Below, in pieces: positions 5,173 to 19,573 of a stretch of DNA of 21,958 nucleotides. Every line of letters begins with the position of its first letter. Position 1 is the stretch's first letter. The notes under the pieces were generated by a model. The model searched no databases. It saw only the letters and a list, made by a program, of their open reading frames with translations, and was not told the DNA's origin. Both the position numbers and the translations under genes were made by a program. Source of the DNA: a virus. The stretch spans positions 1 to 21,958 of IMG/VR virus record IMGVR_UViG_3300020419_000090; one strand, written 5' to 3'.

Positions 5173-5237
5173 GACGTGATTTGATGTCTCACCATTCTGC
5201 CTTGGATCTGAGGTTTTAACACCTATCTGACAAAGAT

Positions 5238-6026
5238 TTAAGAGTGACCGGCCTTTGGTCGTACCTCGTTAAAAAATTTGTCGACTAAAGCGAGCCACGC
5301 AAGCTCGTCCTTTTCGACCTCGGATTCACCAAAGGTAAAGACTTGAGTCTGATAGTCATCTATCGGTGTGGACACGATAATCTGCGTTTTACTAATTTTG
5401 ATACCTAAGCAGGCTTCTGCTGCAAGTTTGTAGGCAGCTAATTGTAGTCGTGTTTTCTTGACCTTAAACACTCCTGAAATGAGTGCCTTTTTAGTTTTTT
5501 CGTCGATGTTGGACTTCTTATTAGGAAAACGTGCGCTGTAGGGACCTGCGCTCGTCTTAAAGTCAGCTAGGACAATCTCTGCGTTGTTGTCCATATAAAT
5601 TAAATCACAGCACCCTGCGTATCCGTGTTTTGTATTTTCGTCGTAGTAGAAAATTCTTCCTACACCATCGTCTCCAACGTACTTAGACCAACTTGGTTGA
5701 TTGTAAGGTCGCTCAGACCATAGGACTCTGCCTCCTTCAAGAATCTCGTCCATTCTCTCAGGAACGCCTTTCCAAAAAGGAGCGTATGCCTCTGGAGGCA
5801 CAACCTTCAAGCCACGAATATGATTTTCAGTTGCCTCGTGAATCCACGTTCCTCGAGCTGCTGCTGCGTCAGCTGCACCAGGGTTCATAATGTTCCAGTG
5901 AGCCAGTTTTTGCTGAGTCTTAGCTGACTGAGTGCTACTAAGAATTGAAGTTACAGACGGTAGATAATCAGGTACTCCAGGACACTTGTAGTGCCTCAAA
6001 CCGTTGATAGTTTTACGTGTATCCAT
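5238..6026 (-). CDS. RecB/Cas4-like PD-(D/E)XK exonuclease
   Basis: A 262-residue protein with all core elements of the PDDEXK nuclease fold in the RecB/Cas4 group. Motif I is RGTWIHEATENHI with His63. There is an acidic WSERP segment near 103-107. Motif II is GYAGCCDLIYM with Asp141. Motif III is VLADFKTS with Asp155 and Lys157. Motif IV is RLQLAAYKLAAE with Gln195 and Tyr199. Such single-domain phage nucleases degrade or process DNA ends during recombination, replication or host DNA breakdown. No Cys cluster for an iron-sulphur centre is evident, so it is not a classic Cas4. It lies between a small acidic gene and the primase-helicase, in the replication cluster. Confidence 0.85.
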   Translation of the reverse strand: MDTRKTINGLRHYKCPGVPDYLPSVTSILSSTQSAKTQQKLAHWNIMNPGAADAAAARGTWIHEATENHIRGLKVVPPEAYAPFWKGVPERMDEILEGGRVLWSERPYNQPSWSKYVGDDGVGRIFYYDENTKHGYAGCCDLIYMDNNAEIVLADFKTSAGPYSARFPNKKSNIDEKTKKALISGVFKVKKTRLQLAAYKLAAEACLGIKISKTQIIVSTPIDDYQTQVFTFGESEVEKDELAWLALVDKFFNEVRPKAGHS

Positions 6027-6046
6027 GCTTTTTAATTTATTTAATA

Positions 6047-6358
6047 CTAGAACTGCGCTAGTCCGTTGCCTGCGTCTTTATTGTCACCGTCGCTGTCGTC
6101 TATAAAAAATTCACTTTTTTGATACTCGAAATCTCTATTACGTTGATCTAGCTCACTCAGCAAGCAACGACCCGCTGAAAAAGAGTCGGCAACAAGTTCT
6201 GCAGTTTCATCTGCTTCACGAGGTTGACCAGCGTGGTCTACGCATTCTTGCAGAATTTGATTACTTACCAACAACGCTGCAATAGTATCAAGCTTTTTAT
6301 TTGTTTCTTGTTGTGCTTCAATCCATTGCGTCAGAAGCAGCTGCAGTCGTCCTTTCAT
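6047..6358 (-). CDS. small acidic hypothetical protein (103 aa)
   Basis: Not recognised. The N-terminal half is a long helix (QLLLTQWIEAQQETNKKLDT), suggesting a short coiled coil. The C-terminal half is acidic and probably disordered (DDSDGDNKDAGN). The start overlaps the end of the methyltransferase-like gene by 41 nt, and no better in-frame start was found downstream. It ends 20 nt before the RecB-like nuclease gene, so the two are likely co-transcribed. An acidic tail of this type sometimes marks a protein-interaction partner of replication enzymes, but nothing here proves that. Confidence 0.55.
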   Translation of the reverse strand: MKGRLQLLLTQWIEAQQETNKKLDTIAALLVSNQILQECVDHAGQPREADETAELVADSFSAGRCLLSELDQRNRDFEYQKSEFFIDDSDGDNKDAGNGLAQF

Positions 6359-6890
6359 TTTTTTGTAAAAAGTATTTTGGTCGCTGCCAGCTTACATCGA
6401 AATCAATATTTGTCCCCCTATCTGTTGGCTTCGCTTTGTCGTATACCATCCACGCAGATGTTACTGAGTCTTTTGTTTTACCCTGATCAGCACGAAATAT
6501 TGGCCGAGGATTTAAAACGATAAGATTCGATAAAGGTTTTTCCAGTAAAAACTCAGATCTCGCCCGTGTGGGCTCAAGAAATGTTAAGCGGTCAAGAATA
6601 ATAAGACCGCGATTAGCGAGTTCGAAACCCGGCTCAATAACCCATTGAATATTCTCACGCACACCCTGGGTAATCGCCACGGTCCAATCGAAGTCAGGGA
6701 GATTTCTCCACCAAGAAGTATCGAGGTAGTCGGTATCACTATTAGCTCGGATACAGTCGGAGTGTCCCATCGACTTTAATTGAGCTTCGAGCTGTCCGTC
6801 TGTATCAAGAGGTAGGACAATCCTCCCAGACACGAGGTTTTTTTCCGTAATAGGATTAATAATATTGTCGGGTACTTTATAAAAGCTCAT
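6318..6890 (-). CDS. methyltransferase-like protein lacking the catalytic motifs (probable pseudo-enzyme)
   Basis: The 190-residue product closely follows the C-terminal half of a phage and cyanobacterial DNA adenine-methylase-like family. GLIILDRLTFLEPTRAR (95-111) and then VLNPRP, GKTKDSVTSAWMVYDK (137-152) correspond to the family's LLRLxFLEPTxxR and GKTDSVTxAWxxWD blocks. Two elements are missing. Where the family has the NPP[FY] catalytic motif, this protein reads AITQGVREN (72-80). The Gly-rich SAM-binding motif I expected near residue 25 is replaced by LPLDTDGQLEAQL. The fold therefore seems preserved while catalysis looks lost. The ATG at 6890 shares bases with the divergent nblA-like start. 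Family assignment is from memory of these motifs. Confidence 0.6.
   Translation of the reverse strand: MSFYKVPDNIINPITEKNLVSGRIVLPLDTDGQLEAQLKSMGHSDCIRANSDTDYLDTSWWRNLPDFDWTVAITQGVRENIQWVIEPGFELANRGLIILDRLTFLEPTRARSEFLLEKPLSNLIVLNPRPIFRADQGKTKDSVTSAWMVYDKAKPTDRGTNIDFDVSWQRPKYFLQKNERTTAAASDAMD
6878..6883 (+). promoter_or_regulatory. candidate -10 element for the nblA-like gene
   Basis: TATAAA lies within TTTATAAAA, 5 nt before the + strand ATG at 6889. No convincing -35 hexamer is seen at 16-18 nt upstream. If used, transcription would start at or very near the ATG and give a leaderless mRNA, which fits the absence of a Shine-Dalgarno site. Confidence 0.3.
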
Positions 6891-7122
6891 GGAAAGTGAT
6901 GATCTACTACGGCAGTTACGTGAGTATATGACGATCGAGCAAGAGTTTTATCATCATAGATTTATGTCTCGTGCACGAAAAATTGAAAAGGCAGAGGACT
7001 TTGTAGAGATCTTAGACCTGCTCCACGCAAACTACCTAGTTCAAAAAAGGCTTTTTCAAAATCTTGCAAAGTCTGTTGCAGACTCTGGAGTAGAGCTACC
7101 TCGTTTAAGCGATTTGCTTTAG
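6889..7122 (+). CDS. nblA: NblA-like phycobilisome degradation protein
   Basis: NblA is a small adaptor that binds phycobiliproteins and brings them to the host Clp protease so that the light-harvesting antenna is dismantled. Several cyanophages carry it. This 77-residue protein has the family pattern. MTIEQEF (residues 14-20) matches the [SL][LV]EQ[QE]F opening of NblA. A helix with a conserved aromatic follows (Phe25). A second helix, FVEILDLLHANYLVQKRLFQ (38-57), aligns with the family's FLVELLRQxxVKDNLxK helix. The C-terminal L59-x-K61 fits the pair implicated in phycobiliprotein binding. It has about 12 extra N-terminal and 15 extra C-terminal residues. It is the only + strand gene between 1.5 and 20 kb, so it looks like an independently expressed cargo gene. 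Confidence 0.75.
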   Translation: MESDDLLRQLREYMTIEQEFYHHRFMSRARKIEKAEDFVEILDLLHANYLVQKRLFQNLAKSVADSGVELPRLSDLL

Positions 7123-7129
7123 CAATAAA

Positions 7130-7156
7130 AAACCGCCGAGAGCACTTCGGCGGTTT
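7130..7156 (-). terminator. intrinsic terminator after the ssb block, possibly bidirectional
   Basis: CCGCCGA (7133-7139) pairs perfectly with TCGGCGG (7147-7153) around a 7-nt loop, and A/T pairs extend the stem. Read on the - strand, the hairpin is followed by TTTTTTATT, a good terminator for the genes ending at 7182. On the + strand only TTT follows, so termination of the nblA-like transcript would be weaker. It lies between the convergent ends of the two units. Confidence 0.8.
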
Positions 7157-7181
7157 GGTGTGTATGTGAGTAGCCTTTAGA

Positions 7182-7991
7182 TTACACCGAAAGACCCGCA
7201 GCTTTCAAGGCTTCCTTCTGTTCCTTTGTCAGTTCTTTAGAATTGTCTGACGTGGGTTCTGGAGGCGCTGCCTTAGGTTCGCCCGCACCAGCAGGAAGAG
7301 CGCTAAGACCTTCCGCCTTAGATCCCTCCAGCTGAGGATTGGCTTCATCGAAAGCTGCTTTGATTTCGGCATGATCAGTTCCAAGAGGTAGTTCAACCAA
7401 ATTCGCACCGGAGATATGAGAACGAAGTGCACTTGATACCAAGTCTCCTCCATCGTTTTGGAGCCACTCGTTAATATCTTTGATGAGAATTTTCTCTTCG
7501 TCGTCTTTGACTGGACGGTCAACAAACTCAAGCACGTTGTAATTAACTTTACCTGTGTCTGCGCCGGTAATCGGATCAGTTTGGGTAAAGCTTCTTTGAA
7601 CAAACTTAGTTTGAGTCACAACCTCCGCGACGTTGATGCGGTTGTTGTAAAGGGTTTGAAAATATGAGATGAAATTCTTTTGACTGCTCTTACCAGAGAT
7701 AACAGCAGTTGATACGCATCGACTAGGTAACAGACGATGAGTAGGGTCCACACCAATAAACGCAACCCTGATGAATTCTTGACGGTTTCGCATTCCAAGG
7801 TTCCCATAGAAGGGAGTAAACCCGAGCAATACAAATGAAATAGGGATTCCGTTGTCATTGGAATCTGTGATTGCTTGATCGGGATCCGTATCCGACTTCC
7901 AGCGACGTTGCTGAAGATCGATGCGGAGCGTGTGCGGTGGGACTTGGCAGAGAATCTCATCAGCCGCAAATTGTCCAGCGATAAAAACCAT
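7182..7991 (-). CDS. conserved-looking hypothetical protein, partner of the SSB-like gene
   Basis: The 269-residue product is not recognised. The N-terminal two thirds look like a compact alpha/beta domain (ISFVLLGFTPFYGNLGMRNR; FIRVAFIGVDPTHRLLPSR). The C-terminal 60 residues are rich in Ala, Pro, Glu and Lys and look disordered, ending in KELTKEQKEALKAAGLSV. Tails like this often mediate contacts in single-strand-binding or recombination mediator proteins. The gene starts 6 nt after the SSB-like gene and is followed by a terminator, so the two form one unit. A role with SSB in replication or recombination is inferred from position only. Confidence 0.7.
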   Translation of the reverse strand: MVFIAGQFAADEILCQVPPHTLRIDLQQRRWKSDTDPDQAITDSNDNGIPISFVLLGFTPFYGNLGMRNRQEFIRVAFIGVDPTHRLLPSRCVSTAVISGKSSQKNFISYFQTLYNNRINVAEVVTQTKFVQRSFTQTDPITGADTGKVNYNVLEFVDRPVKDDEEKILIKDINEWLQNDGGDLVSSALRSHISGANLVELPLGTDHAEIKAAFDEANPQLEGSKAEGLSALPAGAGEPKAAPPEPTSDNSKELTKEQKEALKAAGLSV

Positions 7992-7997
7992 GACTAA

Positions 7998-8645
7998 TCA
8001 AAGAGAGAAGTTAATTGAACCAATAGCCGCTGCAGCGACTTGACCTTTTTCAGGGTCAGCTGCTTTTTTGGGCGCGGACTTCGTGCCCTTAGGAAGGTAA
8101 AGAATCTGATCTACGGCGTAGTTCAGATACTGCTTTTCACCTTTTTCACTCGTGCTGACCCGACCGACAGCGATCGTGGGTGTTCCGTTAGGTAGCTCAG
8201 AGAGTTGTTTGGAGTGCTGGTTCCAGGCTGTGAGCTTGAACCAATTTGTTTCTTTGTCGTCGGGAGCCTGCCAGGCAATGGATCGGTTTGTGACAGTTGA
8301 GTCACCAACCTCGCTCTCTTCTGACTTTGGACCAAGTCCACCGCACGCCATAAAAGTATTGATGGCGAGGATGTCACTAAAGTTTTCAGGAGTCACAACC
8401 AACATTGGTTGCATCTGAATCACACCGTCTGGCGTGGCTTTGGTTGGTCCAATGGCGAGAACTTCTTGTTTTTCGTCAAGGTCTTTAAGAAGTTTGCCGA
8501 CGTAGTGATCTTGTTTTTGGATCAGTTGGACTTTGGTAGAAATCTTTTTGTTAGACGAGGGCAGGGATTCAGCAATGACGTTGACTTTGCCGTCTTCGAC
8601 CATTGCAGAGTCTGTGACCCTAAGTCCCAGAAGAAAAACGTTCAT
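7998..8645 (-). CDS. ssb: single-stranded DNA-binding protein (SSB-like OB fold)
   Basis: A 215-residue protein. Residues about 95-188 follow the bacterial SSB OB-fold pattern. INTFMACGGLG resembles the first strand, normally N-x-hydrophobic-x-L-x-G-x-L-G. NWFKLTAWNQHSKQL (134-148) matches the W-x-x-V/L-x-x-W/F-x-K-x-A block. GTPTIAVGRVS (154-164) matches the KGxxVxVxGRL strand. The first 85 residues (MNVFLLGLRVTDS onward) are also beta-rich and could be a second OB-like domain. The C-terminus has Lys and Ala but not the classical acidic DDDIPF tip. It would protect ssDNA at the phage fork. The start overlaps the preceding HNH-like gene by 26 nt. Confidence 0.7.
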   Translation of the reverse strand: MNVFLLGLRVTDSAMVEDGKVNVIAESLPSSNKKISTKVQLIQKQDHYVGKLLKDLDEKQEVLAIGPTKATPDGVIQMQPMLVVTPENFSDILAINTFMACGGLGPKSEESEVGDSTVTNRSIAWQAPDDKETNWFKLTAWNQHSKQLSELPNGTPTIAVGRVSTSEKGEKQYLNYAVDQILYLPKGTKSAPKKAADPEKGQVAAAAIGSINFSL

Positions 8646-9171
8646 CTTTGAGGATTCGGTAAATCGTTGAGCGGTGTACGTTGAGTGCCTTGGCGATTTG
8701 CGGAACGCTCGCGCCTTGGCTACGGAATGCTAAAAGCATCTGCAAGTCCCCGCCACCTATTTTTGAATTTTTTTCATGCAAATACTGGTTATGGTATGGG
8801 TTTACACACAATGGATTCTTGCACACGTTTTTTACTACAGCGTCTTTACTTATATCTAAATAACCAAGTATTAAAGGTCGCACATAAAATCTTTTGTTGA
8901 GTGTATAAACAGCAGGGACTTTGTTAACGAGAGATCCTTGCCAGTCGTAACACTGTTTGTGATCGAAATCGTTGTACGCAAGTTTTTCAAATAGTTCACT
9001 TAACTTATTTTGTTTTGCTATTCCGTAACCCAGTTCGAATCTGTCTGCTTCTAAACTTCTTGCAATGTCTAACGCCTGCGCCTGCGCGTGGGCAGCGTCG
9101 AATGCTTTTACAGATATTTTTACTTGAGTTTGTGCCTTCGAAACTAAAAGGCTGTACTGCTCAGAATTCAT
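8620..9171 (-). CDS. HNH-like zinc-finger protein with C-terminal HTH, catalytic His missing
   Basis: A 183-residue protein. The middle has the layout of the CxW-type phage HNH family: CYDWQG at 74-79, then VCKNPLCVNPYHNQYL at 116-131 with Cys117, Cys122, Asn124 and His127. In the usual family a catalytic His precedes the first Cys of the second cluster (H-x-C-x-NP-x-C-x-NP-x-H). Here that place is Asn115 (KNVCKNP). Residues about 142-176 form a helix-turn-helix of the resolvase or homeodomain-like type (GASVPQIAKALNVHRSTIYR). It may therefore be a DNA-binding protein derived from a nuclease. ATG 9171 is preferred over GTG 9174. A terminator hairpin ends only a few bases upstream. Confidence 0.65.
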   Translation of the reverse strand: MNSEQYSLLVSKAQTQVKISVKAFDAAHAQAQALDIARSLEADRFELGYGIAKQNKLSELFEKLAYNDFDHKQCYDWQGSLVNKVPAVYTLNKRFYVRPLILGYLDISKDAVVKNVCKNPLCVNPYHNQYLHEKNSKIGGGDLQMLLAFRSQGASVPQIAKALNVHRSTIYRILKDERFSSGT

Positions 9172-9175
9172 CACT

Positions 9176-9213
9176 AAAAAAGGGTTAGAAGAGTGTACAA
9201 CTCTTCAAACCCT
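9176..9213 (-). terminator. intrinsic terminator downstream of the glycine-rich gene
   Basis: AGGGTT (9181-9186) pairs with AACCCT (9208-9213), and GAAGAGT (9188-9194) pairs with ACTCTTC (9200-9206), with one A-A mismatch between the stems and a 5-nt loop. On the - strand the hairpin runs into TTTTTT (9181-9176). The next - strand gene starts at 9171, directly after the T-run. Confidence 0.8.
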
Positions 9214-9230
9214 GTGAAGTTTATTTTTTA

Positions 9231-10391
9231 CTAAGATAGTTCGCTGAACAGATTACGAACGCCCTCACCGACGTTTAGACCTTGTGATTTGGCTCTCTTG
9301 CCAACTTTTAAAAGCTCTTCTGACGTTGCTCCTTGATCAATTAGAGCTCGAACATCTTGCAAGCCGTAACCTCCTGCGCCGGCCGAAGCAAAATCATAAT
9401 CGGCAAACCTGCCGGCAGTCTGTGAAGAAGTAGAGGTTGAAGAACTTTCTGAATTCGGCGTCGCTCCAAGGCCCTGCTCTTTCATGTATGTCTCGTAAAA
9501 AGGTCTCAGAGCATCGCCGACAGTGCCTGCGCGGTAACCGGTGCCGTAATCTTCACCACCTGCACCACGGAACTTCATTTCTCCTTGATCGAAACGACCT
9601 TGGATCACTCCAATTTTGTCGAGCTGAGTATCTTCTCCACCAGGGCGGTAGAACGCTTTTGCTTCGAGGAATCGACGACCTGCGTCTTTTTGATCAAAGA
9701 AATTTTTGTCTTTACCAAACATGAAATTCACATAGTCACCGTAAGCTCCCTCTTGATCTCGTTCTGTTGAACCGAGCTTTCCGGCTACACCGATGCCTTT
9801 ATAAGGAGTGAAACCTTCTTTTTCGACATTTTTATAGAAACGATCGATGTCAAAACCGTAGTCGTCTCCCTCTTGAAGATCTTTCAAAAGAGGATCAAAA
9901 AGCGTGTTGTACTGCTCTTGCGTGGTGAGCTTGTCACCGACAGCACGTTTGAGAAGTTGGTTAGCCTTACCAACTGCTTCTTGCCGACTCAAGTCTTTGG
10001 TGTAATCCTGGGGCGTCCTGCTGAATTTAACGGCTTCAGGGGTGAAATATGGCTGAGATCCGGTAGGCGTGGTATCAGTAGTAGGACTACCGGTTTGATC
10101 TGCGTCGATGTTGGCATCTACGTTAGCTACGCCAGTGTTTGCCCCAATGTTGCTGCCGACAATATTTTGAATACCACCGCCTCCGAAACCACCGCCGCCA
10201 AAACCAAGCATCGCAGCCGTACCAGTCTGAGGCTGTGGTCTCATACTAAGAGCATTTCCCTTACCTTTCGTTTGCTGCATCAAGCTGAGAAACGGGTTAA
10301 GTCCTCCCGTGGCCTCATCGTCATCGCTAAATAAACCGGCTAAGTCGATACCAAAAAGACTTCCCGCCGGACGAAAAGGAGTGCTAGTCAT
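9231..10391 (-). CDS. glycine-rich hypothetical protein, possibly virion-associated
   Basis: The 386-residue product is not recognised. The N-terminal part holds FGIDLAGLF, a glycine tract GFGGGGFGGGG (63-73), an Asn/Ala/Asp stretch with repeated NIGAN, NVDAN and NIDAD units (80-98), and a Ser/Thr/Pro linker. Residues about 115-320 look globular and rich in charged and aromatic residues (Asp, Lys, Tyr, Phe). A Ser/Thr linker precedes a C-terminal helical domain with LQDVRALIDQGATSEELLKV. Composition of this kind suits a virion or scaffold-like protein, though the gene lies in the replication region. TGAGG directly abuts the ATG. A terminator follows the gene. Confidence 0.6.
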   Translation of the reverse strand: MTSTPFRPAGSLFGIDLAGLFSDDDEATGGLNPFLSLMQQTKGKGNALSMRPQPQTGTAAMLGFGGGGFGGGGIQNIVGSNIGANTGVANVDANIDADQTGSPTTDTTPTGSQPYFTPEAVKFSRTPQDYTKDLSRQEAVGKANQLLKRAVGDKLTTQEQYNTLFDPLLKDLQEGDDYGFDIDRFYKNVEKEGFTPYKGIGVAGKLGSTERDQEGAYGDYVNFMFGKDKNFFDQKDAGRRFLEAKAFYRPGGEDTQLDKIGVIQGRFDQGEMKFRGAGGEDYGTGYRAGTVGDALRPFYETYMKEQGLGATPNSESSSTSTSSQTAGRFADYDFASAGAGGYGLQDVRALIDQGATSEELLKVGKRAKSQGLNVGEGVRNLFSELS

Positions 10392-10420: not shown

Positions 10421-10942
10421 TTAGCTGTTTTTGAGCCAATAGCGACTGATATCAAATCCAGGTCCACATACTGATTTTAAAGTTCTAGATATCCTGGACG
10501 CTTCCTCGTAATCTTTAAATCGTTTTGCTTTTTCTTTGTCTTTTGTATACGAACAAAGTAATTTTTTACTTGTATTCAGACAGTCAAGAACATACTCGTT
10601 ATCACGAGTCACAATCCAAACTTCTCTAAAGCTGAGAAGTGGCATAGCGCTACGTTGCTCATCTGTATACAATCTTCCTGTTAACTTACACTCTGTCGCC
10701 TTATCTGTCTTTTTTAATTTTTCTGTCTTAACTTTTACAGTCTCTTGTATGAGACCATTTTGTTTAAGTGTTTTATTTAGTTTTCTCGCAGCGTTTGCAG
10801 CGACTAAGGGCTTTGCATAGTGCTCCGTAGTAATAATCATGCACCCGTCTGTCTTAACGCAGCCGACATAACCACTGTCAGTCTTTGCTGTAAAGACGTC
10901 GCGCTTTTCGTCTTTAGGTAACCAAACAGTAATTAAATTCAT
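10421..10942 (-). CDS. hypothetical protein downstream of DNA polymerase (173 aa)
   Basis: The ATG at 10942 overlaps the polA stop as ATGA, which settles the start even though the frame remains open further upstream. Not recognised. The protein is basic and seems to contain two related halves. Each begins with a short beta segment (ITVWLP and VWIVTRDNEYVL) and ends with a Lys/Arg-rich helix (VAANAARKLNKTLKQ and YEEASRISRTLKSV). The second half, with the AKRFKDYEEA stretch, resembles small phage modules of unknown function. Coupling to polA suggests a role in replication, but there is no direct motif evidence. Confidence 0.7.
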   Translation of the reverse strand: MNLITVWLPKDEKRDVFTAKTDSGYVGCVKTDGCMIITTEHYAKPLVAANAARKLNKTLKQNGLIQETVKVKTEKLKKTDKATECKLTGRLYTDEQRSAMPLLSFREVWIVTRDNEYVLDCLNTSKKLLCSYTKDKEKAKRFKDYEEASRISRTLKSVCGPGFDISRYWLKNS

Positions 10943-12834
10943 TTTTCTGCCCAGGAGTCTCCGACGTTTGCGTCGCATTTAACGGGAACTTTACTCAAAA
11001 CAGACTCAGCTGCAAGTCTCATTTCAGTCTCTAGCACGTCTTTGAAGTGATCTGCTTTGCTTTCAACCGCTTCGAAAATTAACTCATCGTGCACCGTGGC
11101 GATTGGACGGAAATTATCGTTTATCAATTTTCCTAGGCGGGCGATTGCAAGCTTCAGTATGTCCGCCCCTGCTCCCTGGATCAGGGTGTTGGCGCAGGTG
11201 GTCATGGCCGCGTCGTCGTAACTCAGCAACCTTCTCCTTCCAATAGGTGTTCTTACATAAGTCCAACCGTCCTGGACCATAGCGTTTCGTTCCCTGTGCC
11301 ATTCTTTGAGTCGCGGGTAGGCACGGTGGAAACCAGAATGAGCCACCTTAGCCTCAGATAATGAGATGATATTACCTGAACTAGCAGCGTATGTTTTGTA
11401 TTTTTTGAAACCCATGCCGTACAAGAGAGCAAAGTTCAACGTCTTACCCATCTGACGCTGCGACTTTACCACTTCTTTAATCGGCACATGATAAATCAAG
11501 CTTGCAGTAAGTGAGTGCAGATCCGCCCCATCTCGGAAAGCCTCGATCATTTGAGGTATACCAATCAGCTCTGCTGCCAAACGAAGCTCAATCTGTGAAT
11601 AGTCTGCGATAACGAATTTGAATCCTTTCGAAGGGACAAAACATTCTCTAAACTCTTTGTCTCTAGGCACTTGTTGAATATTGATTCCCCAAGATTCTTT
11701 TTTCTTATTACCTGTTACACGCTTGGAGCCAGAGCTTGTGAAGCGTCCGCTGTTGGCTCCATAGGAGTTGTACCCACTGTGCATCCTTGAGGATACAGGG
11801 TTGATGTTGGTTAGAATTTTTTCGACGTGGGCAAGAGCAGTTTCAAGCTTTGTTCGTTTTCTGAGAAGGTTTAGTGTTTCGTCATCGCTGTCAAACTCGC
11901 TCAATGCAACCTGAGACAGCGTTTGTTTTCCAGTTCTAACGTCAGTTGGTAAAGCAGTGCCGATCTGATTGAAACATCTGACACATTGTGCATTAGATCC
12001 AGGATTGAACTCCTTTTTGGCGTTCTTTCCGATGGCGATTGCCCCATCGGCCCTTCGTGGGAGTTTGAATTCATCTTGAAGCCGACTATCAAGGGACTCA
12101 CAAAATAATCTAGTAGCTGTGTCTAGCTCCTGCTGTTTTAAATGCTGTAGGGCTCTCACTTTACTGACATCCACACCGAAACCATAGTGACACATCAATG
12201 CCACTGGGCGGATGACCTGACTCTCGAGAGTGTAGACCTCGAGAAGGTTTTCAGCTGCCAGTTCATTTAGCTGAAGCGCGGCGATCTGCGGAAGAATATC
12301 GACGTCTTTTGCTGCGTATGTAATTTGATCTAAAGACAATTCTTCAGCACTCCAATCTGAAACCTGCTGTTCTTTAGAGATTTCGATTTCGAGTCTTCTC
12401 GCTACAACAGCTTTTAAGGAGCAACTAACGTCTCCGAAAAAAACTTTCTCGGTCTTCGGACTTACTTTCTTTTCTTTATATCCTGCTCGCAGGCAGCGCT
12501 CAGCTATGAACGTATCGAATATTTTTTTCTTATAGTCGATACCCAGTTTGAGAAAAAATTGTAAGTCAAAATTAGCGTTGTGAAAAAGAAGCATCTGCCT
12601 CGACTCTATGAGTGCTTTAAGACCGTCTATGTCTTTGCACTTAAAGAAATCGATTACATATACGGTTCTGTCTTTAACGTCTTCTTGTGTTGTGCAGAGT
12701 TGAAGAAGTCTCGGTTCGTGTACTCGCGCATCGAGCCCCGTGGTTTCAAAGTCAGCGCAGAGTTTGGGGACTGTCCATAACTCAGCAAGAGCAGCTTCGA
12801 ACTCTTGGCGGTTGGTGATGTAGTTGACGTTCAT
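10939..12834 (-). CDS. polA: DNA polymerase I family (family A) replicative polymerase with 3'-5' exonuclease
   Basis: The protein has 631 residues and lacks the N-terminal 5' nuclease of cellular Pol I, as is usual in phages. The proofreading exonuclease is intact: DFETTG (Asp28, Glu30), HNANFD (Asn86, Asp90) and YAAKD (Tyr173, Asp177). Polymerase motif A is DYSQIELR (Asp411). The O-helix is RQMGKTLNFALLYG with Arg460, Lys464, Phe468 and Tyr472. Motif C is VHDELIFE (Asp583, Glu584). The residue equivalent to E. coli position 762 is Phe468, the bacterial-type residue; phage T7 has Tyr. It should copy the phage genome with the primase-helicase and SSB encoded nearby. A terminator lies just before its start, so polA probably has its own promoter or depends on readthrough. 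Confidence 0.95.
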   Translation of the reverse strand: MNVNYITNRQEFEAALAELWTVPKLCADFETTGLDARVHEPRLLQLCTTQEDVKDRTVYVIDFFKCKDIDGLKALIESRQMLLFHNANFDLQFFLKLGIDYKKKIFDTFIAERCLRAGYKEKKVSPKTEKVFFGDVSCSLKAVVARRLEIEISKEQQVSDWSAEELSLDQITYAAKDVDILPQIAALQLNELAAENLLEVYTLESQVIRPVALMCHYGFGVDVSKVRALQHLKQQELDTATRLFCESLDSRLQDEFKLPRRADGAIAIGKNAKKEFNPGSNAQCVRCFNQIGTALPTDVRTGKQTLSQVALSEFDSDDETLNLLRKRTKLETALAHVEKILTNINPVSSRMHSGYNSYGANSGRFTSSGSKRVTGNKKKESWGINIQQVPRDKEFRECFVPSKGFKFVIADYSQIELRLAAELIGIPQMIEAFRDGADLHSLTASLIYHVPIKEVVKSQRQMGKTLNFALLYGMGFKKYKTYAASSGNIISLSEAKVAHSGFHRAYPRLKEWHRERNAMVQDGWTYVRTPIGRRRLLSYDDAAMTTCANTLIQGAGADILKLAIARLGKLINDNFRPIATVHDELIFEAVESKADHFKDVLETEMRLAAESVLSKVPVKCDANVGDSWAEK

Positions 12835-12840
12835 AGCATT

Positions 12841-12867
12841 AAAAAAGGACCGCTTGATTCGCGGTCC
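12841..12867 (-). terminator. intrinsic terminator between the 12893-13663 gene and polA
   Basis: GGACCGC (12847-12853) pairs perfectly with GCGGTCC (12861-12867) around a 7-nt loop. On the - strand the hairpin is followed by TTTTTT (12846-12841). The polA start codon is only 6 nt beyond the T-run. Confidence 0.85.
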
Positions 12868-12892
12868 TATGAGGTTAGCCCGACTCAGCTAA

Positions 12893-13663
12893 TCAAGCTT
12901 TGCGAGTGTTCCAAAAATTCAAGATAAACTGATCGACATCTGCCCAGGTATCCGCCAACACTTGACCTGACTCAGTAAGCTCCAGACGGTAGACCTTTCG
13001 TTGAAGGTGATTCTCAGTACCATTAAGCTGTTTGTCAGCTGAGCCAAATTCAATCTGTTCCTCGACTTTGATGAATCCAGTCTGCTTCAAATAAGCAGTA
13101 CCTTCTCGGAGCGCACCGTACACAGGAGAGCTGTGGTAAGTGAGCAGACCTTTTTGAGGCTTAGCTACGAAAGGCATGAACTGTCCTTGAACTCGTTTAA
13201 ATCCTGCAAACAGTTCTGACTGTGCATCTACGTCGCGATCCCAGAGGTCATTAACTTGATTCACAGCGATTTCTCGGATTGTGCAAGTTTTACCGAAGGA
13301 CAAGCTGTGAACGACCATAGCTGCGCCAACGTTCTTGAGACTCTTATAACTGCAAAGCTCTTCTAACGCTTGATCGAGTGTGATCTTTTTGACTTCCATC
13401 TGGCTGATGGTGTGTCGTCCCCGATTTTGCTTCCGTTTTTTGATTGAAGGTGACGTGATCGCAAGCTTGGCAGCAAGGGTTGCAAGCTCGGGGTGCTTCT
13501 TTTCAATACTTAGACTGAAGAGTTTGCTGCTGTCGAGAAGTTTGGTGTCGACGTGGTCCATTAAGTCCACTGTGACAGTTGGAGCTTCGCTTCCGATTGA
13601 CAGAAGTGTTTTGGCTTCGGATTCCTTCAGTTGGATTCCGGCGATTTCAAATTTGACTTGCAT
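12893..13663 (-). CDS. hypothetical protein with possible C-terminal winged helix
   Basis: Not recognised. The ATG at 13663 is preferred over a TTG five codons upstream; neither has a clear Shine-Dalgarno site. The 256-residue product has a mixed alpha/beta N-terminal domain, a basic stretch (IKKRKQNRGRH) near residue 80-90, and a C-terminal part where ALREGTAYLKQTGFIKVEEQ is followed by KVYRLELTESG. The second pattern resembles the recognition helix and wing of winged-helix DNA-binding proteins. It sits between the VWA/AAA module and polA and is closed by its own terminator. A DNA-binding role is inference. Confidence 0.65.
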   Translation of the reverse strand: MQVKFEIAGIQLKESEAKTLLSIGSEAPTVTVDLMDHVDTKLLDSSKLFSLSIEKKHPELATLAAKLAITSPSIKKRKQNRGRHTISQMEVKKITLDQALEELCSYKSLKNVGAAMVVHSLSFGKTCTIREIAVNQVNDLWDRDVDAQSELFAGFKRVQGQFMPFVAKPQKGLLTYHSSPVYGALREGTAYLKQTGFIKVEEQIEFGSADKQLNGTENHLQRKVYRLELTESGQVLADTWADVDQFILNFWNTRKA

Positions 13664-13709
13664 GTTGTTGGCAATCAACTCGTACAGCGTAATGACATTC
13701 TTTGAGCCG

Positions 13710-14084
13710 TCAACTGCACTTTATTTTCGTAATATCCTTCTCTATGTCCATCACTATGTTCCACAATTCATACTTAGTGCACCTAATCACATGGTGTAGC
13801 TCGTGAAGCGAGTCACAAGAATAATTTTTAGTTATGTAGGGTTGGATTCGTATAGTTTTTTCTGATCGAGGGTGACTATCCTGTCCTATCATCAAAACAT
13901 TAAATATCTCTGGACCGGTAAGGTAGGTAATCAATCGATCCTGATATGAAGTCACCTTGACAGACTGGTTCAGGTCAATGAGGCACCCCGCAATCCAGTC
14001 AAGCAGCTCTATCGAAGCCTCGAGGTGCATATACTGCTCCGCAATGCTTTCGAAACTTTCTACTGCTTCCCTAACAGAATTCAC
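13710..14084 (-). CDS. hypothetical protein (124 aa)
   Basis: Not recognised. The frame begins with GTG at 14084; an internal ATG at 14030 is an alternative. The N-terminal half is helical (SFESIAEQYMHLEASIELLD). The C-terminal half has a Cys/His-containing segment (YSCDSLHELHHVIRCTKYEL) that might bind metal, though spacing does not match a known finger. It is 36 nt downstream of the VWA gene on the same strand, so it could be the last gene of that operon. Confidence 0.55.
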   Translation of the reverse strand: MNSVREAVESFESIAEQYMHLEASIELLDWIAGCLIDLNQSVKVTSYQDRLITYLTGPEIFNVLMIGQDSHPRSEKTIRIQPYITKNYSCDSLHELHHVIRCTKYELWNIVMDIEKDITKIKCS

Positions 14085-14120: not shown

Positions 14121-15662
14121 TTAACTTATAGCTTTTTGAAATAGAGCAGAGTTCTCTGCATCTTCACAGATATCTACAAGATGCACCGTATCACAGAATC
14201 TTGTCAAACTCTGACTCTTCTTACCTATGCAGAAGGCGTGAACGTCAAGGTGTTTTGAGTCTTTGAAGAGATTGAACTTACGAACAGTGGCGTCAGTAAC
14301 TTGGCACTCTCCGTCAGTGATAATAAGTATGTCTGCTTTAGGATCGATTTCAGCGCGAGAGTAAGCGTGCTTCATTACTTGGTCAAATGAAGTTCCCCCT
14401 CGAGTAAACCAAGCCATCAGAAACTCAAGAACTTCCTCGCTACTTCCAGAGCGTGGCTCCAGAATTATGCTTTGGTTGATGCCTGTGTCAAACAAATGGA
14501 CTTGTATCTCGCGGTTGTCTTTCGAGCACTGTTCTGCGATTACATAAGTGATTGCCTTTGACCAAAGCTCCGATGACCCAGCCATCGAACCTGAGATGTC
14601 TACATACATAACGACAGGACCTCGATCAACCTCATTACTCTTCGCTTCAAAATCTTTGCTGAGTATTGTTTTTTGGGAGTATTTATAAGCAAAGAGTGCT
14701 TTGCCTTTGGTGGTTGCAGCGAGGGCAATCTCAGAAGGAAAAGCTTTAGTCACGTTGTCAGACATCTTTGCTCCAACAATGTCGCTGTAACTAGAGCGTT
14801 GGTTTTTTGCACGTAATCGTTTTGTCCAAGACTGTTTGAGACCGCCCAGTTTTTGAGCTAACTGCACAAGTCTTTTGTTTTTGCGGAGCCGTTGAGCTAG
14901 TTCTTGCTTTTGTTTAACGTCATCGAGGCGTACCCCGAAACCCTCGTGGTCTCCAGCCAGGCTGCTCATGGCTTCCTGAATGTCTTGAGCTTCTTGCTGA
15001 GCTATCTCAATTGAATAATCGATGTCGGCTTTGTATCTGTCGTGGTGCTCGTTGAGCGTGTCTTCGATGGCCTGACCAAGCTCTTTACCTTTTTGCCTCA
15101 ACTCTGCAGCTTTCTGCGTGTCGCCCTGCTGCATTGCCTCGACGAACTCTTGTCGAATGTCCGCGAGATCCTGCGACATTGAAGTCATCGCAGCCTGAAC
15201 ACCATTGTCTTCAGACATCATTTCTTCAAGGAGCTCGCTCAGTTCGTTCAACACACAGACAGCTGTGTTGCCTGATTCGAAATGTCTTCCCAAGCAGTTT
15301 TGTTGAATCGATGCGTAAACATGACTGTTGGCAACATCGATGAGAATGTTGTTCCAGAACGCATTTTCAGGCTTGTAACCCTTTGGCATCGAGGGTGTCT
15401 CGCCGTTTTGTTTCTGCCGGAAGTAATTCTCCATCTCGTCGAGAGACACAAGAGGGGTAACTTCGCCCCCTGAATAAAAAAACTCAAAGAGCTCTTTTCC
15501 GAACCGACTCAGCTGTCTGATCTCGAATCGATCAGTGAAATACTTGACCTGAGGCCTAGTTTCCCTGACAAAATCAGGCCACAAGAAATCCGTGAGAGCG
15601 GAGACAGAAAGAACTAAGGGATCAGATCCAGCGAGTCTTAACAGTTCTGTTGTTGATTTCAT
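14121..15662 (-). CDS. ViaA-like VWA-domain protein, partner of the adjacent MoxR/RavA ATPase
   Basis: A 513-residue protein. The C-terminal third is a von Willebrand A domain with an intact MIDAS metal site: DISGS (355-359), Thr424 in GGTSFD, and Asp450 in TDG. Ahead of it, SDNVTKAFPSEIALA (301-315) and then KYSQKTIL match the I-V-G/LPSELALLA/YAERxLL region of ViaA-type proteins. The N-terminal 300 residues are mostly helical, with a long charged coiled-coil-like part (about 155-265). In E. coli, ViaA works with the AAA+ ATPase RavA. Here the ATPase gene is directly upstream with an ATGA overlap, so a working pair is likely. The substrate is unknown. CobT-like VWA proteins are the main alternative family. 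Confidence 0.8.
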   Translation of the reverse strand: MKSTTELLRLAGSDPLVLSVSALTDFLWPDFVRETRPQVKYFTDRFEIRQLSRFGKELFEFFYSGGEVTPLVSLDEMENYFRQKQNGETPSMPKGYKPENAFWNNILIDVANSHVYASIQQNCLGRHFESGNTAVCVLNELSELLEEMMSEDNGVQAAMTSMSQDLADIRQEFVEAMQQGDTQKAAELRQKGKELGQAIEDTLNEHHDRYKADIDYSIEIAQQEAQDIQEAMSSLAGDHEGFGVRLDDVKQKQELAQRLRKNKRLVQLAQKLGGLKQSWTKRLRAKNQRSSYSDIVGAKMSDNVTKAFPSEIALAATTKGKALFAYKYSQKTILSKDFEAKSNEVDRGPVVMYVDISGSMAGSSELWSKAITYVIAEQCSKDNREIQVHLFDTGINQSIILEPRSGSSEEVLEFLMAWFTRGGTSFDQVMKHAYSRAEIDPKADILIITDGECQVTDATVRKFNLFKDSKHLDVHAFCIGKKSQSLTRFCDTVHLVDICEDAENSALFQKAIS

Positions 15663-16840
15663 TTTGAGTAACGAGAAATAGCTTCTGCAACTTGGTCAGC
15701 GTTGTGGTTGATGCTCTGACAAAGCTTGGTTGCTTTCATTCTTTGAGTAGCAGTAAACCTTATATTGTTGTTGTCCAACGCTTGTTCTGCCTTACCAGCG
15801 ATGTGGCGGAGCTCTGTATGAATTTTTTTAAGGCTTTGCATATGATGGTTGACTTCAGAAACGTTGCTCATGCTGCGAGTCCGCAAAGAGTTAAACTCAT
15901 TCATAACGTGAGTAGAAGCTTTTGAAAGTGAGCGAATAAATTTGTCAGCTGTCGGCACAACTTGATCTACAACTTCCTTGATTGTTTCTAAATCTTCCTC
16001 TGATTGATAAACAATGTGATGAAGTGTGGAGTGTAGATACTCAGGATGCAAAGCGTCATCACCTTGCACCACAGCCCAACCACGGAGAAACCTGAGAATC
16101 TGGACGCGGCGTCGGTCAGAAATAACCATGCCTCTGCTTTCAAGCATGTCCATGCACTCAGTGAAGATGTCGATGAATTCTTCAGACGCTTCAACTTCGT
16201 TAGCTGCTTTCTGTAGGGTCTCGAGGCTTTCGATTGTAAGTTCTGACTCCACCGCAGGTCGTTTACCAGACAAAGCCCAGCTATAAAGCTTTCGTTTGCT
16301 CGTGGGTTTTTTGAGTCCTTCGATGGTCGGACGGAAAAGAAAACGATCACAGAATGCCTGGAGTGATTCTTCCGCTGGGAAAGAGTTTGTTGCCGCTACG
16401 ACTGATTTGATTTTCGTTTGTACAAGTTCTTTGCCGTTGTTAAAGGTGCGCTCATTCAAAACCTGAAGGAGCGAATTCAGCACAGCGGAGCTACCGCGAA
16501 ACAGTTCATCGAGAAAAGCTATGTTGCTGTCGGGAAGATAGCCTTTGATGTCCCGCGTGTATTCATCCTCGAGCAGTTTCGATACAGCGACTGGACCGTA
16601 GAGCTCTGAGGGATCAGTGGTCGGGGAAAGAAGGTAACCAAAGAATTTGCTTCCGCTGAAACCGTTAGCGATCTGCCTGACGAGCTCTGACTTGCCTGTC
16701 CCTGGCGCACCGAACAGGAAACAGTTTTGCTCAGTGATGATCGAGGCAATGACTCCGTCGATGACATCAGTGCGCTCAAGAAATGTGTTGTTGAGACTTA
16801 CTCGAAAGTTTTGAAGGGAAGTGAAAGTAGAGCTATCCAT
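15659..16840 (-). CDS. MoxR/RavA-type AAA+ ATPase
   Basis: A 393-residue protein with a complete MoxR-clade AAA+ core. Walker A is GAPGTGKS (44-51). An FGYLLSPTTDPSELYGP insert follows. Walker B is IAFLDE (107-112), then ILNSLL-like VLNSLLQVLNERTF, sensor 1 AATNS (Asn152), the arginine-finger region CDRFLFR (164-170), and sensor 2 SDRRRVQILR near 240. Order and wording follow RavA closely. The C-terminal 120 residues are helical and differ from the RavA tail, so partner binding may differ. The ATPase probably remodels a target protein together with the downstream VWA protein. It is coupled to that gene by ATGA and starts 63 nt after the 401-residue gene. Confidence 0.88.
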   Translation of the reverse strand: MDSSTFTSLQNFRVSLNNTFLERTDVIDGVIASIITEQNCFLFGAPGTGKSELVRQIANGFSGSKFFGYLLSPTTDPSELYGPVAVSKLLEDEYTRDIKGYLPDSNIAFLDELFRGSSAVLNSLLQVLNERTFNNGKELVQTKIKSVVAATNSFPAEESLQAFCDRFLFRPTIEGLKKPTSKRKLYSWALSGKRPAVESELTIESLETLQKAANEVEASEEFIDIFTECMDMLESRGMVISDRRRVQILRFLRGWAVVQGDDALHPEYLHSTLHHIVYQSEEDLETIKEVVDQVVPTADKFIRSLSKASTHVMNEFNSLRTRSMSNVSEVNHHMQSLKKIHTELRHIAGKAEQALDNNNIRFTATQRMKATKLCQSINHNADQVAEAISRYSK

Positions 16841-16903
16841 GATCAGAAAAACTTGCGTTTAGATTTTTTGTGAATGTCGATTGACCCTGTGTGGAGCAAA
16901 CGT

Positions 16904-18109
16904 TCAAAAGTCGCAGTCTTCTGTCGACTTGACTTTGGTCTCTTTAAGCTCCTCAGCAATTGAGTCCATGAAGGAAGCTCCAACCAGAAGTTCCTTAGTT
17001 TTGCCAAATACCTGTGAAAGATGCTTGGCGCGGTGCTTGTAAACACCTGTCTGAGCTTCGATTTCCGTTTCAAGCGCTTGGAGATCATCGAGGGATTTGC
17101 AGTTTGAGATTGTTTGAAGAAGAGTTTCGTAAGAATTCGAAAGGGTAAGAGACATCTGTAGAGCCTCAAACCCCTTAGACGAATCCTTACCCTTGACGAT
17201 TGCCGTGGCCTCGTCGCGTATCTCTTGGCGTATTTCGGAATAACGCCTGAAGGCATTAATTCTCTCGATACCTTTAGGAGCATCGCGCATCGTTTCGCCG
17301 ACACGAATTAGATCCTGGAGGAGCGAGGTAATTCCATTGAGCGATGGACAGTGTTTGGAAGCAAGTTGCAGGTGAGAATGAATGTACTGCCAAGTTCCTC
17401 GCCGTTTAGGGTTGTTCGAAAGAACTCTTTCTCCGACTTTGCTAGCGGGACGCACATCGAGATCATCGAGAAGCTCAGCGACTTTCGCAAGACTCGAGTC
17501 GAGCGCCCCGTCTTGAGCTGCTTTCAAAACTTCCGAGGTGTTGATCGCCGCTTGCTCTTGCATTTGTGATGCAAGGTCGTTCGGATCATCCACCCGCTCG
17601 AGCGATGCAGGGTAAGGACCTACGACACACACATTAATGGGGCTTGAAAACTCTTTCGCTGTGGGGAAGATTTTCATATAAGCCTCGCGGACCATTGCTA
17701 GTTCCTGCTGGTCCTGGAACAGCGGAGAAAAGAAATCATCGATGGTGGCTTGCCACTTCCCAAACTCCTCCGACCACAGTTCTTTTAACGAGCTGTTGAA
17801 GTCAGCGGCTTTTGCTCTGATCTCATCAATGCGGTGCATCGCATCTTCGAAGTAGTCAGGGTGCAGGAAGTGGACATCTCCGTGTGAGATTGTGCAGTCG
17901 CGATACAGATATTTCTGCAAGAGCCTCAGCTCATCCAAATAAGTCTTCAGGGCGCTAGATAGGTTGGGTCTGATTGACAAAGCGTTGGCACGCTTAAGGG
18001 TGTCGATGACTGACGGAGGCAGCTTGTAGTCCTCGAAAGCAATCTGTACGCTTTGTCGCACAGAAGCATTTACAGAACAATGCAGGATAAAAACTTCAGG
18101 GTTACTCAT
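16904..18109 (-). CDS. hypothetical helical protein of the AAA+/VWA module (401 aa)
   Basis: Not firmly recognised. The protein is mainly helical and acidic. About 60-140 is a likely coiled coil, a short beta patch INVCVVGPYP follows near 160, and a conserved-looking KVGERVLSNNPKRRGTWQYI lies near 220. Proteins of similar size and style, some labelled DUF3150 in databases, occur beside MoxR-type ATPases and VWA proteins in mobile elements, so that family is a candidate. The gene is coupled to the upstream 138-residue gene by ATGA and precedes the ATPase gene. It may be a regulatory or substrate-adaptor subunit. There is no catalytic motif. Confidence 0.7.
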   Translation of the reverse strand: MSNPEVFILHCSVNASVRQSVQIAFEDYKLPPSVIDTLKRANALSIRPNLSSALKTYLDELRLLQKYLYRDCTISHGDVHFLHPDYFEDAMHRIDEIRAKAADFNSSLKELWSEEFGKWQATIDDFFSPLFQDQQELAMVREAYMKIFPTAKEFSSPINVCVVGPYPASLERVDDPNDLASQMQEQAAINTSEVLKAAQDGALDSSLAKVAELLDDLDVRPASKVGERVLSNNPKRRGTWQYIHSHLQLASKHCPSLNGITSLLQDLIRVGETMRDAPKGIERINAFRRYSEIRQEIRDEATAIVKGKDSSKGFEALQMSLTLSNSYETLLQTISNCKSLDDLQALETEIEAQTGVYKHRAKHLSQVFGKTKELLVGASFMDSIAEELKETKVKSTEDCDF

Positions 18110-18522
18110 TTGGTGATGCGCTTGTAGGCCGTGGTGACTTTCTCAGTGACGAAGTCGAGTCCTTTGATCTTGAGCTGCTCAATCAAACTCTTGCGTTTGC
18201 TTTTCAGCAGCTTCAACTCTCGCTCAACTTTCTCGATTCGAATGTCGAGCTTCGCCAGTTCATCGCATGGAACAGGAAGCCGACTGACGCGAACGATTAC
18301 TTGAGTCCCAATCTCGGGGAACTTGAATGGAGATTCAGGTCCCTGAAACTGCTCTAGCTCTACGCCTTTGGTGTCGGCGATAGCCAAAGATGTGTTCAGT
18401 GTGTCGCGAGACGCTTGCCATGGTGTGCCGAAGGCTTCGTCTACTTGAGCGAGTGCTTCGTCGCAAGCTGCCCAGAGCTTGGCGGTGTCGAAGGCTTTGG
18501 AGCGGAGGTCGTCGATTTTCAT
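18106..18522 (-). CDS. first gene of the AAA+/VWA operon, coiled-coil protein (138 aa)
   Basis: Not recognised. The N-terminal half is helical (LWAACDEALAQVDEAFGTPW). A central beta segment, EIGTQVIVRVSRLPVP, precedes a strong C-terminal coiled coil, LDIRIEKVERELKLLKSKRK. The gene stops in an ATGA overlap with the 401-residue gene. It is the promoter-proximal gene of the module: a sigma70-like promoter and an inverted repeat lie within 75 nt upstream. It may be a small structural or regulatory partner of the ATPase and VWA pair. Confidence 0.7.
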   Translation of the reverse strand: MKIDDLRSKAFDTAKLWAACDEALAQVDEAFGTPWQASRDTLNTSLAIADTKGVELEQFQGPESPFKFPEIGTQVIVRVSRLPVPCDELAKLDIRIEKVERELKLLKSKRKSLIEQLKIKGLDFVTEKVTTAYKRITK

Positions 18523-18540: not shown

Positions 18541-18558
18541 AGTGATCTACTGATCACT
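18541..18558. promoter_or_regulatory. inverted repeat, candidate operator at the start of the AAA+/VWA operon
   Basis: AGTGATCTACTGATCACT has two perfect 7-bp arms with a 4-bp centre. It begins 7 nt downstream of the -10 hexamer and so covers the predicted start of transcription, where a bound repressor would block initiation. It ends about 18 nt before the first ATG. Confidence 0.55.
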
Positions 18559-19161: not shown

Positions 19162-19503
19162 TCAGAACAGGTTGAACTTAGCACCAGCTTTGATGCCGAC
19201 GGTCAGTTCGTCGCCCGTGATGAAGGAAACTTCACCATAGACGGGACCACTGCTAATACCAGCCTTACCGGAGATTTCGATCTCGCTTTCGCCAGAATCA
19301 GGAATCAAAACGGCTGGACCCGCTTGCACATAAGCACCGTTGTCAAACTCATAACCAACGTGGCCTTCAACGATTGCAGAACCGAAACCGCTGTCAGAAC
19401 CGAAGCCGGTGTTGAGCTCAGGGTTCACGAACACTTCGCCTGCCATGCCTGCACCACCAAAGGTGAGGAGAGCAGCGACTGCACCGAGAGCAGACTTGAT
19501 CAT
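19162..19503 (-). CDS. secreted beta-rich protein of cyanophage type (113 aa)
   Basis: The start is ATG 19503 rather than the longer frame to 19545, because it gives a clean signal peptide: MIKSALGAVAALLTFGGAGMA, with likely cleavage after Ala21. The mature part opens with GEVFVNPELNTGFG. It then shows alternating beta strands (GHVGYEFDNGAYVQAGPAVL, EIEISGKAGI, VYGEVSFITGDE, VGIKAGAKFNLF) ending in an aromatic residue, as in small outer-membrane barrels. Many cyanophages carry a protein with the same VNPE, GPA and FITGDE blocks. The place of action would be the periplasm or outer membrane. Its role in infection is unknown. Confidence 0.75.
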   Translation of the reverse strand: MIKSALGAVAALLTFGGAGMAGEVFVNPELNTGFGSDSGFGSAIVEGHVGYEFDNGAYVQAGPAVLIPDSGESEIEISGKAGISSGPVYGEVSFITGDELTVGIKAGAKFNLF

Positions 19504-19573
19504 TTTGGTAAAGAAAAACCATCTTAACAGTAGGCATACTTGCAAAGTGAGTCGTTCTTATGTGTGCCAATTT

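Follow-up and report, generated by a model that had tools for sequence, protein, structure and literature searches.

Pairs of a MoxR-type AAA+ ATPase and a VWA-domain protein are common in cells and phages, and several phage pairs are already known. In N4-like phages, gp24 and gp25 form such a pair and belong to the core genes (PMC4193335, PMC2784036, PMC7650795); a 2009 list gave their homologues no assigned function (PMC2784036), and by 2014 they were counted among the core genes (PMC4193335). Further MoxR-VWA pairs are described in phage 0305phi8-36 (PMC2147016) and in haloviruses (PMC7911831), others are known from phages CL131 and Hardycor1, and archaeal tailed viruses carry CobS/CobT pairs that have been read as cobalt-chelatase helpers (PMC8651126). 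Here we analyse a pair of this kind in IMG/VR record IMGVR_UViG_3300020419_000090, a linear virus record of 21,958 bases that we call the window throughout. What is new here is an obligate five-gene unit, found in relatives of Synechococcus phage S-EIV1, that joins RavA-ViaA-type proteins to a probable DUF3150-like component, P401. The literature searched contains no description of such an obligate five-gene unit or of a RavA-type motor paired with a DUF3150-like protein, and a search for 'DUF3150' returned no paper that mentions the family.

Conserved linkage and limits of the unit

A reading made from the letters of the window, which we refer to as the sequence-only reading, had proposed a module of four genes with ATGA couplings. 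The genes are real and stand in the order that it gave, P138-P401-ATPase-VWA (Table 1); ATGA overlaps are present at two of the three junctions, P138/P401 and ATPase/VWA, and the third, between P401 and the ATPase, is a 63-bp gap. This gap measures 54-96 bp in the closest relatives and up to ~0.97 kb in distant ones. In several distant relatives (L019-L034), where it spans ~0.9-1.0 kb, the gene order is unchanged.

Scans of IMG/VR yielded 55 ATPase loci and at least 126 P401 loci. Loci were retrieved with ATPase, VWA or P401 queries, and the counts that follow therefore describe how the genes are linked where one of these three is present, not how often they occur in phages; some near-identical viruses may have been counted repeatedly. 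P138, P401, the ATPase and the VWA gene occur in the same order and on the same strand in 66 of 66 distinct ATPase loci with enough flank, a linkage far beyond chance. Profile searches place a fifth gene after the VWA gene, again on the same strand, in 84 of 84 distinct loci; it precedes the DNA polymerase gene polA in all 82 of these in which polA is in view, and polA comes next in nearly every locus of sufficient length. Every locus tested carries the unit, over an ATPase identity range of 51-100%. The linkage that had been claimed is thus conserved, in a set that numbers five genes where four had been counted, and one of the two partners then described as unknown is probably DUF3150-like (see below). 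The unit is an obligate five-gene set in a group of mostly uncultured, cyanophage-like viruses.

This constancy bears on the idea that the genes form a counter-defence or superinfection module. MoxR-VWA systems have been placed in predicted biological-conflict operons (PMC7159879). Defence models gave no meaningful match here, the best for the ATPase (E 4e-4) covering the P-loop part only, and presence in every locus tested is unlike the patchy distribution of counter-defence genes. Because the unit is obligately conserved, we regard an accessory counter-defence role as highly improbable.

At the threshold of our script, 50 of 53 distinct loci have a hairpin followed by a T run between the fifth gene and polA, a count that stands without a shuffled control; in 46 of those 50 loci the hairpin is at or below -13 kcal/mol, and the stems differ in sequence among loci yet keep pairing. 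Because the gene order is conserved and this terminator hairpin precedes polA, we draw the transcription unit as ending after the fifth gene, and we read its genes, in order, as P138, P401, ATPase, VWA, the ORF at 13710-14084 and the fifth gene; polA follows. The polymerase gene is a conserved neighbour in the following transcription unit, outside the five-gene count; the description of the module as lying next to DNA polymerase holds by position, with the conserved fifth gene and the terminator in between.

A promoter belonging to the unit had also been proposed. The promoter-like TTGACA-17-TACAGT at 18593-18565 does not rise above chance, since the region holds four such matches against 6.0 expected in shuffles. 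A perfect inverted repeat, GTGATC-AGTA-GATCAC (18542-18557), lies just 5' of P138, between its start codon and the promoter-like match, and is a possible operator. By eye, no clear Shine-Dalgarno motif is present in the 25 bases before the starts of most minus-strand genes of the window; some start codons may be wrong, or initiation may differ.

The ATPase and VWA pair

The ATPase matches the Pfam families bpMoxR (PF20030; 2e-53, 180.9 bits) and AAA_lid_8 (PF17868; 23.5 bits), and RavA was the only match in a PDB search with the ATPase family profile (2.4e-43). The NCBIfam RavA profile also matches, at 1.5e-37 and 129.8 bits, below its equivalog cut-off of 681 bits. In a tree, the ATPase groups with E. 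coli RavA, Aphanizomenon phage CL131, Moorella phage MTATph1 and bacterial homologues; the fork that holds this phage-RavA group has support of 83/97, with several long branches, and AAA_3-type MoxR proteins, CobS-like proteins, N4 gp24 and p618 of Acidianus two-tailed virus (ATV) fall outside it. Walker A (G44..S51), D111-E112 and N152 (sensor 1) are invariant in 30 homologues, as are D165-R166-F167 and S241-D-R-R of the sensor 2 region. The assignment to MoxR/RavA-type ATPases with intact motifs is borne out, with profiles and tree alike placing the protein with RavA.

The AAA+ core and lid of the phage ATPase (residues ~1-292) are followed by a lineage-specific helical C-terminus (~300-393) that replaces the LARA and C-terminal domains of RavA. 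In E. coli, LARA is the RavA domain that binds the lysine decarboxylase LdcI. Pfam finds neither LARA (PF20265) nor the RavA C-terminal domain (PF12592) in the phage ATPase, whereas both are matched in E. coli RavA. Residues 77-102, among the best-conserved stretches in the 30 homologues, would by their position form the pore-lining helix-2 insert (H2i) of clade-7 AAA+ proteins (PMC13036017).

The VWA protein matches Pfam VWA_2 (PF13519, 1.3e-6) and, within residues 244-482 only, the NCBIfam ViaA profile (4.2e-15; 55.9 bits, short of the 500-bit cut-off); its N-terminal half has no match to that profile. The family phrog_24053 is common to this protein and E. coli ViaA, which together with the C-terminal match keeps it within the ViaA/CobT groups. 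Neither the CobT domain (PF06213/PF11775), which is present in bacterial neighbours of DUF3150 genes, nor the DUF2201-type families matched by N4 gp25 (PF13203/PF09967) were found in the window's VWA protein. The metal-ion-dependent adhesion site (MIDAS) is intact, as the sequence-only reading had it: none of D355, S357, S359, T424 and D450 varies among 32 homologues. Just before the VWA domain, residues 301-340 rank with the best-conserved blocks of the protein, and the segment ~301-347 is a candidate for a finger that would enter the ATPase pore, its position matching that of the NorD finger (PMC13036017). The GRxLL motif was considered as a finger motif and dropped, since it belongs to the ATPase H2i in the NorQ-NorD work (PMC13036017) and is no evidence for a finger.

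Profiles, tree and synteny therefore agree that a RavA-ViaA-like pair is present in a phage. Like E. coli RavA-ViaA, it combines a RavA-type MoxR core and lid with an overlapping VWA partner gene directly downstream and an intact MIDAS. It is not RavA-ViaA proper: LARA and the RavA C-terminal domain are missing, both proteins score far below the NCBIfam cut-offs, the VWA protein is matched in its C-terminal half only, and P401, P138 and the fifth gene are added. Closer to it in kind are CL131 gp147-gp146 and MTATph1 CDS0115-CDS0114, which are likewise pairs of a RavA-type ATPase and a VWA protein, of the same PHROG families; identity in the ATPase is ~29%, and the adjoining stretches that were read hold no P401 or P138 match. 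The CL131 VWA gene overlaps a beta-clamp gene. In N4, which likewise has a family-A polymerase, an AAA+ ATPase (gp24) is encoded next to a VWA-type protein (gp25). Because gp25 is a DUF2201 protein, not ViaA-like, and gp24 (phrog_1297) belongs to another ATPase group, the N4 pair is not of the same family as that of the unit; it also lacks P401. A further candidate, 'Campylobacter phage A11a' (MG065691.1), was rejected as contamination: its RavA core is identical to that of E. coli, in an unverified record.

The cellular relatives suggest another role, in which the pair would remodel host complexes or insert metal cofactors in a takeover of host metabolism, as RavA-ViaA does for respiratory complexes and NorQ-NorD for nitric oxide reductase. 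Such functions are described for these relatives (PMC3893208, PMC10585395, PMC13036017), and the chelatase-helper interpretation of viral CobS/CobT pairs (PMC8651126) points the same way. The unit contains no recognised metalloenzyme gene, however, and its ATPase has no LARA domain; we consider this role unlikely.

P401 and the other partners

P401, which had no family match by sequence in profile searches, is likely a divergent DUF3150-like protein, a resemblance that we had presumed before the fold search. Its AlphaFold model (predicted local distance difference test, pLDDT, 87.5) matched seven viral predicted structures in Foldseek at E <1e-3 and probability 1.00. One of these is annotated DUF3150 (E 7.9e-6, probability 1.00, template-modelling scores 0.41/0.53, 15% identity); a PDB fold search with the same model gave no convincing match. 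Alignment of P401 with DUF3150 by hhalign scored 39.4 (P 2e-4) over 205 collinear columns, and reversed and unrelated-family controls scored at most 26.0. The last residue of P401 is F in 80 of 80 distinct full-length copies, as DF in 78, and is preceded by a variable acidic tail; all seven of the DUF3150 proteins taken from bacterial genomes end in F or W. Because the fold match, a profile score above controls and the common C-terminal aromatic residue coincide, we judge homology to DUF3150 likely, though not proven.

Several results weigh against this assignment. Pfam DUF3150 (PF11348) does not match the window's P401 at E 0.1, nor is it among the 25 families listed, of 29, for 32 P401 members; the fold match has template-modelling scores of 0.41-0.53 and 15% identity, and the hhalign probability is only 46%. 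Weak matches are, moreover, frequent among helical folds, and together these points would suit a lineage-specific helical protein unrelated to DUF3150, the RavA-ViaA-type pair then working with unrelated partners. Such an account would leave aside the seven high-probability Foldseek matches (all to viral predicted structures, none in the PDB), a collinear alignment well above its controls, and the AAA-VWA context and aromatic C-terminus common to P401 and DUF3150, and we find it rather doubtful.

Two patterns scanned against bacterial genome contigs gave no confirmed relative of P401. DUF3150 itself occurs there in comparable company: bacterial loci L199 and L205 carry a DUF3150 gene between CobS/CbbQ-like ATPase and CobT-like VWA genes, and a Salmonella genomic island has a DUF3150-AAA-VWA set near ssb and bet. 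These sets share with the phage unit a MoxR-type ATPase, a VWA protein, a helical protein with an aromatic end, and replication or recombination neighbours; they differ in their motor pair, which is of the CobS/CbbQ and CobT groups and not of RavA/ViaA, and P401 is too distant for the Pfam DUF3150 model. No DUF3150 gene is annotated within 1-50000 and 100001-166530 of the IncC plasmid pAR060302.

In L205, genes for a beta clamp, a CobT-like VWA protein, DUF3150, a CobS/CbbQ-like AAA protein and a YqaJ nuclease are clustered (3121-10132), an arrangement that makes it questionable whether CobS/CobT genes of this kind encode cobalt-chelatase subunits. Mycobacterium phage Dylan gp94 (L220:27933-28760, 275 aa), identified by its length, is likely the weak P401 fold match S5YZA3 (E 0.046). 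It adjoins an AAA-ATPase gene that is not of the MoxR type and is a lead only; its region encodes a DNA polymerase III beta subunit, Ku and a ParB-like protein, and the C-terminal part of gp94 holds two DFE motifs.

P138 forms an alignment of 33 members with 34-79% identity to the window's copy. Its model (pLDDT 91.7) predicts a helical hairpin, with helices at residues 3-51 and 87-119 and a small beta part between them, and found no convincing match in a PDB fold search. The fifth gene had no family in Pfam/PHROG-type profile searches; the same was true, in profile searches, of the open reading frame (ORF) between it and the VWA gene, which occurs in nearer relatives only.

Phage lineage and gene neighbourhood

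The nearest isolate to this lineage is Synechococcus phage S-EIV1, with identities of 70% for the capsid, 51% for the terminase and 42% for the portal protein; its primase, exonuclease and ThyX genes also match, and its DNA polymerase is 24% identical over the matched part only. The window further encodes, at 19162-19545, a protein of the Pfam Phage_OMP family of cyanophage outer-membrane-protein-like beta barrels (2.1e-20). Because S-EIV1 is the nearest isolate and the window has this cyanophage beta-barrel protein, a cyanobacterial host is suggested, not shown. An N4-like identity, at which PolA, a D5 primase and ThyX had hinted, was set aside: the structural genes match S-EIV1, and no giant virion RNA polymerase was seen. 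The stretches read in two long relatives (74.7 and 80.9 kb), whose records may be incomplete, contain no ORF longer than ~950 aa. These two relatives together hold a terminase (phrog_38), a portal protein (phrog_20475), a major head protein (phrog_1357) and an endolysin; phrog_2 detected no terminase in the whole records, phrog_38 being the right family.

The replication genes of the lineage are polA, then a weakly SSB-like gene, an exonuclease and a D5-type primase. The SSB-family match (window 7998-8645; E 0.002, residues 95-167) falls within a replication-block gene that is highly conserved. In both long relatives the five-gene unit sits with the replication genes, away from those for terminase, portal and capsid.

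This placement argues against a virion-assembly chaperone that would remodel capsid or tail proteins, as proposed for ATV p618/p892. A precedent exists, in that a chaperone function during tail development has been ascribed to the MoxR-type ATPase of ATV and a partner (Scheele 2011, cited in PMC7911831), and roseophage RPP1 encodes four virion proteins near its gp24/gp25 homologues (PMC4193335). The ATV ATPase lies outside the phage-RavA group, however, and S-EIV1 has the capsid and portal genes in common but not the unit; a role in virion assembly is in our view quite unlikely.

Table 1. Positions of the unit, its neighbours and candidate elements in the window.
Feature	Position	Strand	Description	Basis
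P138	18106-18522	minus	138 aa; first gene of unit	ORF
P401	16904-18109	minus	401 aa; DUF3150-like (likely); acidic C-terminal tail	ORF
P401-ATPase gap	16841-16903	minus	63 bp, without ATGA coupling	
RavA-type MoxR AAA+ ATPase	15659-16840	minus	393 aa	ORF and profiles
Candidate H2i of ATPase (residues 77-102)	16535-16612	minus	PSELxGPVAVxKLLxDEYxRDxxGYL	
ViaA-like VWA protein	14121-15662	minus	513 aa	ORF and profiles
Pre-VWA segment (residues ~301-347)	14622-14762	minus	KAFPxELALAATxxGRALFALKYSQKTLLTKDYEA; candidate finger	
Small ORF	13710-14084	minus	124 aa; between VWA and fifth gene	
Fifth conserved gene	12893-13678	minus	261 aa	
Intrinsic terminator	12846-12868	minus	AGGACCGC-loop-GCGGTCCT and T run; closes unit ahead of polA	
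Family-A DNA polymerase (polA)	10939-12834	minus	with 3'-5' exonuclease domain	PF00476 1e-64, PF01612

Proposed mechanism

We give a probability of roughly 0.5 to the reading that the unit encodes an ATP-driven finger-in-pore remodelling machine acting on a DNA replication or recombination complex, a target that we infer. From what is known of its family, the ATPase would form a hexamer. On the NorQ-NorD model (PMC13036017), the VWA protein would dock on the ATPase ring with its finger in the pore, and ATP binding and hydrolysis would rotate the VWA protein while its MIDAS held the target. P401 would serve as an adaptor or third component; its acidic tail, with Asp-Phe at the tip, may be a peptide that docks on a replication protein or else, like the NorD C-terminus, on the AAA+ ring. 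The tails of SSB and T7 gp2.5 provide a replication-protein precedent for docking of this kind. Most probably, the machine would remodel a protein complex involved in the replication or recombination of phage DNA, or strip it.

Gene context favours this role because polA, the weak SSB-like gene, the primase and the exonuclease are found in the lineage, DUF3150 sets lie near clamp, nuclease, ssb and bet genes, and the CL131 VWA gene overlaps that for the clamp. Besides the doubts over DUF3150 set out above, three points count against it. The terminator places the polymerase gene in another transcription unit. The argument is indirect, proceeding from gene neighbourhood to a replication role, and the complex, its ATPase activity and its target are predicted. 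Finally, S-EIV1 has no match to the five-gene unit, and the function is thus not needed by every such phage.

Implications

Within the material searched, a RavA-type pair and DUF3150 are connected here for the first time. Among the many MoxR-VWA pairs of cells and phages, the unit is a gene set with sharp limits and invariant motifs; it offers candidates for a third component and for a docking tip, so that the role of a phage MoxR-VWA pair can be tested by co-purification and mutation. We tentatively raise a wider possibility, less probable than its alternatives: RavA-ViaA-type motors in S-EIV1-like phages and CobS-CobT-type motors in bacterial mobile elements may use the same DUF3150-like adaptor with an aromatic docking tip, both serving the replication or recombination of mobile DNA. 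If this is true, phages and islands would in many cases carry 'CobS/CobT' genes that encode replication-linked remodellers, not cobalt-chelatase subunits.

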